Below the pieces are notes generated by a model that was given only the letters and a program-made list of their open reading frames with translations, was not told the origin of the DNA and did not search any database. 39,171 nt of DNA, taken from a virus. The position numbers and the translations under genes were made by a program. The stretch spans positions 1 through 39,171 of IMG/VR virus record IMGVR_UViG_3300043436_002351, one strand, 5' to 3'. This document shows, in pieces, positions 10,836 through 14,048 of the stretch; within the stretch, counting starts at the first letter, position 1, and every line of letters begins with the position of its first letter.

Positions 10836-11966
10836 TTATAGCGTTGCCATCCACTTCTTGATTATCTCGTCCTCTTTCTTGATTTTGTTCTTAAAAAGTA
10901 TCTGGTCTTTGCTGTAATTAAACTCATTATCTCTTGCCCAAGTTATATTTCCCTCCCAGTCGCAAAGTAGTATTCGCTTGACCATGTATTTACACGCTCC
11001 GACATCATCAGTATCGCCAAATCTACTCCATTGAAACCTGAACAATTTAGACAAGTCTGGATGAATGCTATTAAGTAAAAAGTCCTTGTATTCTTTCCAT
11101 GTTTTAAAGCGTTCAGGCAAAGTTTTAATCGAGTAAATCAAATCCTCTTTTGCATAAATCGAAGCCGTATGAACGCCTTGTAATCGCTCCTCAAGTTTGT
11201 TGTATGTATCTGGTTCAAGTTCCTGCAAATCGGTTAAACAACGGAATGCTTTTTCGTGAATCAAATTAGATACACGCAATGTACGCAGGTCGTGTCCCAG
11301 CATGTACATCTTGTCGTATATTCGATTGTACTTGAATCCTCCATCAATAAGATACTTCCAAATATCCTTGTACTTCCAGTCGATAATCGGATATGCCTTA
11401 TGCGGTTCGTTTATTCTTCTAAGCCAAAACATTTCCGAATCTTCACCAAATAAAACGAATCGTCTGTCTGGGCTTTCTTCTGCCCTCAAGCCAATAATAG
11501 ATACACTTTTGCCGGGTAATTTTCGCAAGTTCTGACCAACCCATAAATTAAACTTATGAAAGCGTTTCGGGTATTTGCCATCAATGTCGTGTATAGCAAC
11601 AGGGTTCTTATCTCTTACCCATTTTTCTTCATTACCCCACGCCCATAAAAACAACTGACTGGTACTGCAAGCATTAGTCATAAATATAGGCACTTGATAC
11701 CATAACGGTATAACATTAGGCTGGGTCATAACCCATTCGACAAGTTCTATCGTTGCTAAATACTCTGCCTCTTGGTCTTGAAAATAAACAATAAACTTTC
11801 GGTTACGCTTCTTTGCTTCTTCATTCAGCAGATGGAACAATACGGTGCTATCCTTGCCACCAGAGAATGATAGTTGAATATTGTCGTAGTTATCAAATAA
11901 GAATGCAATACGCTTGTGTGTTGCATTAAGTACATTATCAACGCCTCTTACTGCTGTGCGTGCCAT
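10836..11966 (-). CDS. PAPS reductase-like PP-loop protein (IbrA/DUF3440 type)
   Basis: A 376-residue protein. Residues 33-41 (SFSGGKDST) are the PP-loop of the adenine nucleotide alpha-hydrolase superfamily that includes PAPS reductase and the DndC sulfur-transfer protein. Further conserved features are VYFQDQEAEY near residue 60, IIGLRAEESPDR (about 158-169) and AYPIIDWKYKDIWKYL (about 192-207). Length and layout match the IbrA-like branch. The upstream ParB-like gene overlaps it by one base (TAATG), the usual partner arrangement. IbrA and IbrB were described as regulators of immunoglobulin-binding proteins in E. coli; the biochemical role in phages is not established. Confidence 0.85.
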   Translation of the reverse strand: MARTAVRGVDNVLNATHKRIAFLFDNYDNIQLSFSGGKDSTVLFHLLNEEAKKRNRKFIVYFQDQEAEYLATIELVEWVMTQPNVIPLWYQVPIFMTNACSTSQLFLWAWGNEEKWVRDKNPVAIHDIDGKYPKRFHKFNLWVGQNLRKLPGKSVSIIGLRAEESPDRRFVLFGEDSEMFWLRRINEPHKAYPIIDWKYKDIWKYLIDGGFKYNRIYDKMYMLGHDLRTLRVSNLIHEKAFRCLTDLQELEPDTYNKLEERLQGVHTASIYAKEDLIYSIKTLPERFKTWKEYKDFLLNSIHPDLSKLFRFQWSRFGDTDDVGACKYMVKRILLCDWEGNITWARDNEFNYSKDQILFKNKIKKEDEIIKKWMATL

Positions 11967-12499
11967 TATATTTCTTCCTGAATATCTTCTCCTGCTTCCA
12001 CTATTTGCCGTTCAATCGAATAAGGTACACCATGTATTTCTGATGCAATACCTTTGATGCCAATCAGTCGTTGAACCTCTTCCAAAGTCATCCCCAATTC
12101 TTTCATTATCTTTAACTCATCCCATCCAGATTTAAGCATACCAACGAGCGATGCTTGCAGTTCAACTTCGTGCTTTCCTCTTGCTCGATTGTGCCGGATT
12201 GTACTTGCCATCCGGTCATTTATATCTTTCTCAATTACCGATACCGGAAGCATGCCATTTTCACGCTCATAAATATCTTTTCTGGTCAGCATTATCGTAT
12301 ATCGATGGAAGCCATCAACGATAACATATTTATCCCTGTCAGCATCGTAAAAGCACACCACTGGCATAGTATAACCATCGCATTTGATTGACTGATACAA
12401 CAATTCCATCTCACGCTTTGCGACATGGTTTGGATTGTAATCATTTGCCTCGATTTTATCAATCGGTACGGCAATAACATTGTAAACTGGACTTTTCAT
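11966..12499 (-). CDS. ParB-like domain protein (IbrB type)
   Basis: A 177-residue protein with a ParB/Srx N-terminal domain: VPIDKIEANDYNPN (about 11-24), then VDGFHRYTIM (about 57-66), the G-x-x-R/H motif, and ASTIRHNRARGKHE (about 98-111). The C-terminal part is helical with an HTH-like stretch (DELKIMKELGMTLEEVQRLIGI). This domain binds nucleotides in related proteins. It lies between, and overlaps, the SNF2 helicase gene (four bases) and the PP-loop gene (one base), so all three are one translational unit. Confidence 0.85.
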   Translation of the reverse strand: MKSPVYNVIAVPIDKIEANDYNPNHVAKREMELLYQSIKCDGYTMPVVCFYDADRDKYVIVDGFHRYTIMLTRKDIYERENGMLPVSVIEKDINDRMASTIRHNRARGKHEVELQASLVGMLKSGWDELKIMKELGMTLEEVQRLIGIKGIASEIHGVPYSIERQIVEAGEDIQEEI

Positions 12500-13683
12500 A
12501 TTGTGTTTATTATCTCTTCAATTTTTACTGCTCTGAAATACTCATCCATACTCTGCTTCTTTTGGATATTGTCATTAACGAGAATATCAAGACCAGTGTT
12601 GCTATTCATGTCGTAATAAATACAATCATGATTCTGCCCTGTTCGATATGTACGCTGTTCGCTCTGCAATCGCTGAGCATAGTCAAAGGTCTTATCGAAA
12701 TAAATCGTGATGTGTTTATCCTGTAAGTTTAACCCAAACGAGTGCATGCCATACGACATAACCGATACTAACGGATATTTCTTTTGCAATGTTTCACGAC
12801 TTATAATATACTTGCAATATATCAAGACCTTGCTCTGGTCTAACTTAGCCAACAACGCATCCAACTTTTCCAACTTATTTTCCGATATGCAGTACAGGTG
12901 TTGCATCTTCTGGGTCATTTCGATGAAGATGTTGTTGTTCAGGAATTGAAGCGTTTCATTATCCAAATAGTGCGTTTTGAGATGCTGGTACTGCTCCATT
13001 TCTTCATCGCTAATCTTGTAATTGATATGATTATATTCTTTTTTGACTTGAATAAATAAATCAGATTCATAGACATACGGAGCAATTACGCTGTACAGGT
13101 AATCAATGTTCGTAAATTCGTGAATGACTTCTTTTGATACCTGTCTGCCCGATACCCATTTGGTTACTTTTGACCATTTGCAGAATGTATTCTTAAACTC
13201 GGCAAAATCCATCTTTAATATTTTCGGAGAAAGAAATTCCATCTGCGCCCAGATGTCCAGCAGGTTTTTGGATATTGGCGTGCCGTTCAGCACCAACTTA
13301 TACTTAGCATATTTACCTATCTCAATTATGCGTTGCGTCCTCTTGGCTGTGTTATTTTTGATTTTAAGCGATTCGTCTACGACAACGAAGCAATCGTGCG
13401 TCTGGACATAGTTAAATAGCCTTAAATACTCTCTATCGGATGAAGATAGCGTTTCAATTCCAATAACTTGACAATTTTTGACAAAACCAGATTTGGCAAG
13501 TTCGATACGCAGGTTGTCTTTTGTCCGAAATGGCGTGAACCAAATAACTTCGGGTACTTCGGTTGAGTTAATAAGCGTTACGGCTGTAAGTGTTTTGCCT
13601 GTGCCGGGACGCATGAATAACGCCCCGACTTTCAAGCAATTTAACTTCTCGACTGCCGACTGCTGGTCTGGCAGTAGATTCAT
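12496..13683 (-). CDS. SNF2-like DNA helicase/translocase
   Basis: A 395-residue superfamily 2 protein. Motif I is MRPGTGKT (24-31), motif II is VVDESLKIKN with DES in place of DEAH (about 101-110), motif III is LNGTPISKN (132-140), and motif VI is SEQRTYRTGQ (about 340). These are SNF2 hallmarks. It is compact, without extra DNA-recognition domains. It heads the helicase-ParB-PAPS cassette and probably moves along double-stranded DNA. The modified motif II is common among phage SNF2 proteins. Confidence 0.85.
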   Translation of the reverse strand: MNLLPDQQSAVEKLNCLKVGALFMRPGTGKTLTAVTLINSTEVPEVIWFTPFRTKDNLRIELAKSGFVKNCQVIGIETLSSSDREYLRLFNYVQTHDCFVVVDESLKIKNNTAKRTQRIIEIGKYAKYKLVLNGTPISKNLLDIWAQMEFLSPKILKMDFAEFKNTFCKWSKVTKWVSGRQVSKEVIHEFTNIDYLYSVIAPYVYESDLFIQVKKEYNHINYKISDEEMEQYQHLKTHYLDNETLQFLNNNIFIEMTQKMQHLYCISENKLEKLDALLAKLDQSKVLIYCKYIISRETLQKKYPLVSVMSYGMHSFGLNLQDKHITIYFDKTFDYAQRLQSEQRTYRTGQNHDCIYYDMNSNTGLDILVNDNIQKKQSMDEYFRAVKIEEIINTI

Positions 13684-14048
13684 TTTACAAGGTCTGAATC
13701 TGCTTCCATTTTATCAGCAACAAGCACTGGAGGATTGTTTTTTTCAACTATCACCTCGTTGTGTCCTGTGCCGTATGTGGTTTCTGTTTGTCCGGCTTTT
13801 TCTTCCATGTACTTAATTTCCTCAAGAACCTGCTCAATTACCCGTTGCTTTTCTTTCTGCAACCACTGATAAGGCTGGCTTGGGCAGTCAACAAATACCG
13901 ATACTTGTACTTTACCATCCTGAATGTAAATGTAGGTGGTGGTATTCATTTTCTTGGTTTTGTAACCGAATTGTGGAAGATAAACTCGGCTTTCTTTCCA
14001 TACTTTTGAGCCGAAGTAATTTGCGAGTGATTCGAGTGTGTGTGTCAT
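13680..14048 (-). CDS. Hypothetical protein before the SNF2 helicase
   Basis: A 122-residue protein with a beta-rich first half (TTTYIYIQDGKVQVSVFVD) and a charged helical segment (QWLQKEKQRVIEQVLEEIKY) followed by a polar tail. It overlaps the helicase gene by four bases and may be a subunit of that cassette; that is inference from coupling only. Confidence 0.6.
   Translation of the reverse strand: MTHTLESLANYFGSKVWKESRVYLPQFGYKTKKMNTTTYIYIQDGKVQVSVFVDCPSQPYQWLQKEKQRVIEQVLEEIKYMEEKAGQTETTYGTGHNEVIVEKNNPPVLVADKMEADSDLVK

Follow-up and report, generated by a model that had tools for sequence, protein, structure and literature searches.

The nearest described relatives of the locus reported here are IbrA-IbrB and YbdN-YbdM of Escherichia coli, in which a PP-loop protein and a ParB-like protein are encoded by adjoining genes. 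CitR represses ybdNM (PMC9068703), and the IbrAB island activates eib according to work cited in PMC7649339. Related components act in DNA modification. DpdB, a ParB-like ATPase, acts in bacterial Dpd (PMC12839542), and phosphorothioation by Dnd, Ssp and BREX type 4 involves a PP-loop protein, with a ParB-superfamily partner, DndB, in Dnd. In CmoA-CmoX-CmoY carboxymethylcytosine hypermodification, CmoY, an asparagine-synthetase-type phage enzyme, hypermodifies DNA as an ATP-dependent ligase for which adenylation is proposed, and ParBc proteins are often encoded nearby (PMC12783734).

Here, we describe a phage cassette in which the same two protein families, again in adjoining genes, are joined by an SNF2 protein. 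The E. coli pair differs in being chromosomal and near-universal (ybdNM in 5,350 of 5,426 genomes), in having the PP-loop gene first and in having no SNF2 gene. CmoY is likewise distinct as an asparagine-synthetase homologue, and no CmoX- or CmoA-like gene was identified in the cassette. From comparative sequence evidence, we consider the cassette to be, on balance, a putative phage DNA-modification module. While the pair already bears the name IbrAB, a DNA-modification role, a dedicated SNF2 protein and swappable tailoring enzymes appear to be undescribed in the searchable literature, in which our searches found no study of the biochemistry of the cassette and no restriction data for Flavobacterium phage DNA.

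Gene content of the cassette

The window, which is the whole stretch of DNA analysed here, is a virus record of 39,171 bases with terminase, tape-measure and portal-like genes, indicating a tailed phage, apparently of a Flavobacterium-like host. The four genes of the cassette (Table 1) overlap by 4 bases (X122/SNF2), 4 bases (SNF2/ParB) and 1 base (ParB/PP-loop), and its enzymes retain their motifs. Coordinates and family matches agree with the initial annotation, which had described overlapping genes for an SNF2 translocase and for proteins of the IbrB (ParB) and IbrA (PP-loop) types. Its claim that a fourth gene is coupled to these is borne out by the overlap with the SNF2 gene, yet X122 is the variable part of the cassette.

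Table 1. Genes of the cassette, in window coordinates
Gene product	Position	Strand	Length (aa)	Features
X122	13680-14048	minus	122	Variable small protein preceding SNF2; tail EADSDLVK
SNF2 ATPase/translocase	12496-13683	minus	395	GTGKT, DES, NGTP, NLQ and QxxxRxxR motifs conserved
IbrB/YbdM-type ParB/Srx-fold protein	11966-12499	minus	177	DGFHR and TIRHNRARG; helix-turn-helix-like C-terminal half
IbrA/YbdN-type PP-loop ATPase	10836-11966	minus	376	PAPS_reduct and DUF3440 domains; SGGKDS intact

Family searches found no family for X122, and its place before SNF2 is often taken by other small proteins, whose tails resemble its own. Unrelated small proteins preceding SNF2 (the window's; L034, 3910-4233; L081, 4083-5180) have a common C-terminal tail consisting of an acidic residue, Leu or Phe, and a few often charged residues. 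This pattern fits 47 of 73, 15 of 21, 12 of 25 and 5 of 23 tails versus 147 of 7,547 control ORFs; as it was devised after the tails had been viewed, it serves as a lead only.

The PP-loop and ParB-like proteins

The PP-loop protein matches PF01507 (E = 2.7e-16), PF11922/DUF3440 (3.3e-9) and phrog_2302 (8e-117), and the ParB-like protein matches phrog_2159 (4.9e-84). Full-length matches (phrog_2302, phrog_2159 and DUF3440), together with the adjoining genes, assign the two to the IbrA/IbrB families. The SGGKDS loop of the PP-loop protein is of the ATP type, and ECGxH, the catalytic C-terminal motif of PAPS reductase (CysH), is found in 0 of 236 family sequences, the window's included; only the fold is common to both. 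An auxiliary enzyme of sulfate assimilation is rejected on these two grounds.

Structures of moderate confidence were predicted from 39 and 44 sequences, with annotated phage-record rows left aside. For the PP-loop protein, the model (mean pLDDT 77) has as its nearest folds FAD synthase (Z = 15.4, 166 residues, rmsd 3.1), APS/PAPS reductase and CysD. These proteins handle adenylyl compounds, in line with the chemistry by adenylation that we propose. The thiolases TtuA and NcsA are also among the matches.

Most cellular relatives of the PP-loop protein, including many chromosomal ones, have five co-varying cysteines, so the idea of a family devoid of conserved cysteines is rejected. All five are absent from the window protein and from 31 of 31 relatives that have SNF2 and the ParB-before-PP-loop order, and the set is also lacking at every locus with a glycosyltransferase-like or N-terminal methyltransferase family. 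C243 and C335 are the sole cysteines kept throughout the window clade. Given this difference, the function of the chromosomal pairs could differ from that of the window pair.

The cysteines bear on a link to DndC made in the initial annotation. In a DndC-like reading, the PP-loop protein would put sulfur into DNA, as phosphorothioate, or into a base, with a host cysteine desulfurase as donor. Consistent with it are the SGGKDS loop of a PP-loop ATPase, weak, short matches to DndC (4e-6) and BrxP (7e-7), the thiolase folds, and the cysteines of most cellular relatives, which could bind a metal or an Fe-S cluster. However, DndC, which lies outside our alignment, is recognised by at least three Fe-S-binding cysteines, and the window protein has none of the five common to its family. 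PADLOC gave no match to DndA, DndD or DndE among the four cassette proteins, and the cassette has no desulfurase. Because the five-cysteine set and ECGxH are absent, sulfur transfer by the window protein is unlikely, although C243 and C335 are kept in its clade; we regard DndC-like chemistry as quite improbable, and the earlier link is not supported for this protein.

The ParB-like protein is under purifying selection (dN 0.025 versus dS 1.34, compared with contig L002). Its model (mean pLDDT 72) matches ParB (7bnk; Z = 11.6, rmsd 2.0, 91 residues), indicating the ParB N-terminal fold; KorB, sulfiredoxin and free serine kinase are further matches. DGFHR stands in the region of the GERR-type motif of partition ParB and is close to DGVHR of SbnI, with DGxHR in common, and E30, a candidate counterpart of the catalytic Glu of the free serine kinases SerK/SbnI, is nearly invariant.

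An SNF2 protein dedicated to the pair

The SNF2 protein matches PF00176 (1.9e-11) and phrog_62 (6.5e-62), and has the helicase motifs I, II, III, V and VI of SNF2 ATPases, with invariant residues G27, G29, K30 and T31; D103, E104 and S105; N133 and G134; N319, L320 and Q321; and Q340, R344 and R347. When SNF2 alone was used for searching, 73 of the 79 nearest relatives were found to adjoin a PP-loop/ParB pair, a figure that holds for this SNF2 clade rather than for phage SNF2 proteins generally, the query having been made from pair-linked proteins. Among the six relatives without the pair, two reach a contig edge right after SNF2 and four are among the more divergent. The SNF2 type of the window is dedicated to the PP-loop/ParB pair, and a generic phage helicase that is a neighbour by accident is rejected by the same search.

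A scan with the PP-loop protein yielded 41 viral contigs, in 39 of which the order SNF2, ParB, PP-loop is kept, and the same set occurs in Flavobacterium phages 1H, 6H and FCL-2. Since the order is kept so widely and named phages have the set, the arrangement is not due to chance. The conserved association of the helicase with the other two genes, the lack of which was half of what the initial annotation had named as refuting it, is strong both by gene order and by the neighbours of SNF2. Streptococcus, Lactobacillus and Fusobacterium phages have the same three genes in different arrangements.

Conservation of ParB and the PP-loop protein is much higher than that of SNF2. ParB-profile scans of viral and cellular contigs show that the PP-loop gene is tied to the ParB-like gene in nearly all loci (adjoining in 141 of 142 with ParB called); SNF2 accompanies them at 33 of the 69 viral loci and at 18 of the 73 cellular ones. 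The pair is annotated in some 200 sequenced phages. We also note various neighbouring genes. In Fusobacterium phage phiFN37 (L051, 3713-10459), PP-loop, ParB and SNF2 genes lie near a queuine-transglycosylase-like gene, which is accompanied by another ParB gene and one for a queuosine precursor transporter. Several Bacteroidota cellular contigs (L162, 6264-6707; L197, 6296-6691; L206, 6276-6701) have a small acetyltransferase-like gene directly before the pair, without SNF2. At the end of Microbacterium phage Rasputia (L053, 1080-6137), a PP-loop gene stands in a row with genes for three glycosyltransferases, an acetyltransferase and a methyltransferase.

PADLOC finds that the SNF2 protein partially matches the motor domains of ZorD, DpdE and DrmD; the full-length defence proteins and effector that identify Zorya, DISARM or Dpd were not found. 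The resemblance, and the accessory nature of the cassette among close relatives, would suit an anti-phage or counter-defence role, in which the cassette either excludes superinfecting phages or interferes with Dnd/BREX of the host. Against such a role, no nuclease or other effector was recognised among the four genes, the PADLOC matches are partial and confined to motor domains, and the cassette is present in the isolate FCL-2, in which lysogeny was not detected (PMC4541368). We hold a defence role to be improbable.

Exchange with known DNA-modification genes

Homologous gp1 (ParB-like) and terminase genes flank variable genes in phages of the Bclasvirinae and in a Gordonia phage related to them. 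This slot holds the genes of the proven dPreQ0 pathway, DpdA-QueC-QueD-QueE-FolE, in Ares and Quesadilla, those of thymidine hypermodification, Tet/JBP-aGPT-PPlase-5hmU DNA kinase, in Gordonia phage Wooper and a PP-loop/IbrB pair in Mycobacterium phage Phlyer; it is empty in Imvubu, which has no gp1. The pair in Phlyer branches far from that of the window, to which its PP-loop and ParB proteins are 23% and 32% identical. In DNA of Rosebush, a phage of the same genus as Ares, dPreQ0 has been measured at about 28% of G (PMC6884629). A pair of the same families thus fills the homologous slot of phage deazaguanine modules; unlike these and Dpd, the cassette lacks both a transglycosylase and preQ0 genes. 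In Cooper-type mycobacteriophages Hydro and Stinger (L295, 785-3462; L296, 776-2376), the slot has an oxidoreductase and an adenylate kinase, another candidate module.

Within the window lineage, defined by its YqaJ and g164 genes, the cassette is accessory, being absent from most contigs, although many are short, so that absences do not amount to a tally. Several cassette-less contigs that extend far enough encode in this region Mom (PF25680, E = 4.5e-36), an SNF2-methylase fusion, or DNA methylases of the N6/N4 or C5 type. The two states are not mutually exclusive, as L310 has both the cassette and the fusion. The window has no homologue of the lineage methylases, Mom or the fusion, except that its own SNF2 protein weakly matches the fusion (E = 3.3e-7). 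The fusion, as in sister phage L307, resembles the cassette in combining an SNF2 motor with a DNA-modifying enzyme, but is a single protein with an ordinary N6/N4-methylase domain. In another sister phage (L320, 2003-4829), N6/N4 methylase, Mom and C5 methylase genes are near each other.

Judged from the known modification genes that take its place in other phages, the cassette probably puts a chemical mark on phage DNA. The initial annotation had offered self-modification of DNA, countering of a sulfur-based defence and transcriptional regulation; displacement by known DNA-modification modules makes the first of the three the best supported, while the data decide neither way on the other two. 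Control of transcription or takeover of the host would follow the proposal made for IbrAB, a system that raises prophage eib expression in E. coli, and would agree with membership of the same families and with a ParB fold that has a helix-turn-helix-like part. It leaves the dedicated SNF2 protein, the tailoring proteins described below and the displacement by DNA-modification pathways unexplained, and the effect on eib could itself stem from a DNA mark; we deem transcription control unlikely.

A variable slot between the PP-loop and ParB genes

Several phage DNA-hypermodification pathways, such as those acting on thymidine, have a constant core around which the finishing enzymes vary (see also PMC12783734). 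The 244 distinct loci compared here were pooled from different queries, towards which their overall proportions are biased; at 39 of them, another gene separates the PP-loop and ParB genes. About 34 of these 39 inserts encode proteins of four kinds. An ectoine-synthase-family cupin accounts for 20 (PF06339; E = 2e-41 for L212) and a GNAT acetyltransferase for about 9, the others being glycosyltransferase-like or methyltransferase-like. Assignments of the remainder draw on weak or no library matches and on motifs seen by eye: a protein of a family with weak glucosyltransferase matches (phrog_854; 2 loci), a putative methyltransferase with DPPC motifs and no library match (2 loci) and one further methyltransferase-like protein (L102). 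Cassettes of the window type, with ParB before PP-loop, also include such genes: GNAT in L036, which lacks SNF2, glycosyltransferase-like in L022 and L030 and methyltransferase-like in L038 and L134. By analogy, the slot proteins appear to alternate as tailoring enzymes of DNA-hypermodification pathways do. No homologue of the tailoring proteins was detected in the window, and its product would for this reason be a simple form.

The cupin and GNAT partners could also be read as signs of metabolism, with the pair acting on a small molecule, ParB as a kinase like SerK/SbnI and the PP-loop protein as an adenylyltransferase. The DGxHR shared with SbnI, the folds of free serine kinase and FAD synthase, and the near-universal presence of the pair in E. 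coli fit this reading. It is opposed by an SNF2 motor dedicated to the pair and by displacement by DNA-modification genes, and we think it rather unlikely.

A putative DNA-modification module

In the DNA-modification reading, for which we infer DNA as the substrate, the division of labour and the purpose, the IbrA-type PP-loop enzyme would activate its target with ATP, by adenylation, so that a group becomes attached to DNA. The IbrB-type ParB/Srx-fold protein would bind nucleotide and DNA and deliver or gate the PP-loop enzyme, or act as a kinase. The dedicated SNF2 motor may travel along the duplex, exposing or scanning sites. In relatives, the interchangeable GNAT, glycosyltransferase-like, methyltransferase-like and cupin proteins would decorate the handle further. 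The mark probably shields phage DNA against restriction.

We know of no such DNA mark in E. coli, although the core pair is there as ybdNM, and this counts against the DNA-modification reading. The E. coli pair may be silent, owing to repression by CitR, or may act on another substrate. More tentatively, and with less confidence than for the cassette itself, one may envisage a widespread and hitherto overlooked DNA-hypermodification family, in which the PP-loop/ParB core and SNF2 would install a handle, perhaps bearing an amine or amino acid and made via adenylation, and swappable glycosyltransferase, acetyltransferase, methyltransferase or ectoine-synthase-like enzymes would lead to final bases that differ from phage to phage.

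If true, DNA modification would provide a function for a pair that is annotated as "PAPS reductase" and "ParB-like partition protein" in phages and in nearly all E. coli. It would represent a new kind of camouflage for phage genomes, with a bearing on restriction and on the choice of therapy phages, and would open the old IbrAB/YbdNM puzzle to mass spectrometry.
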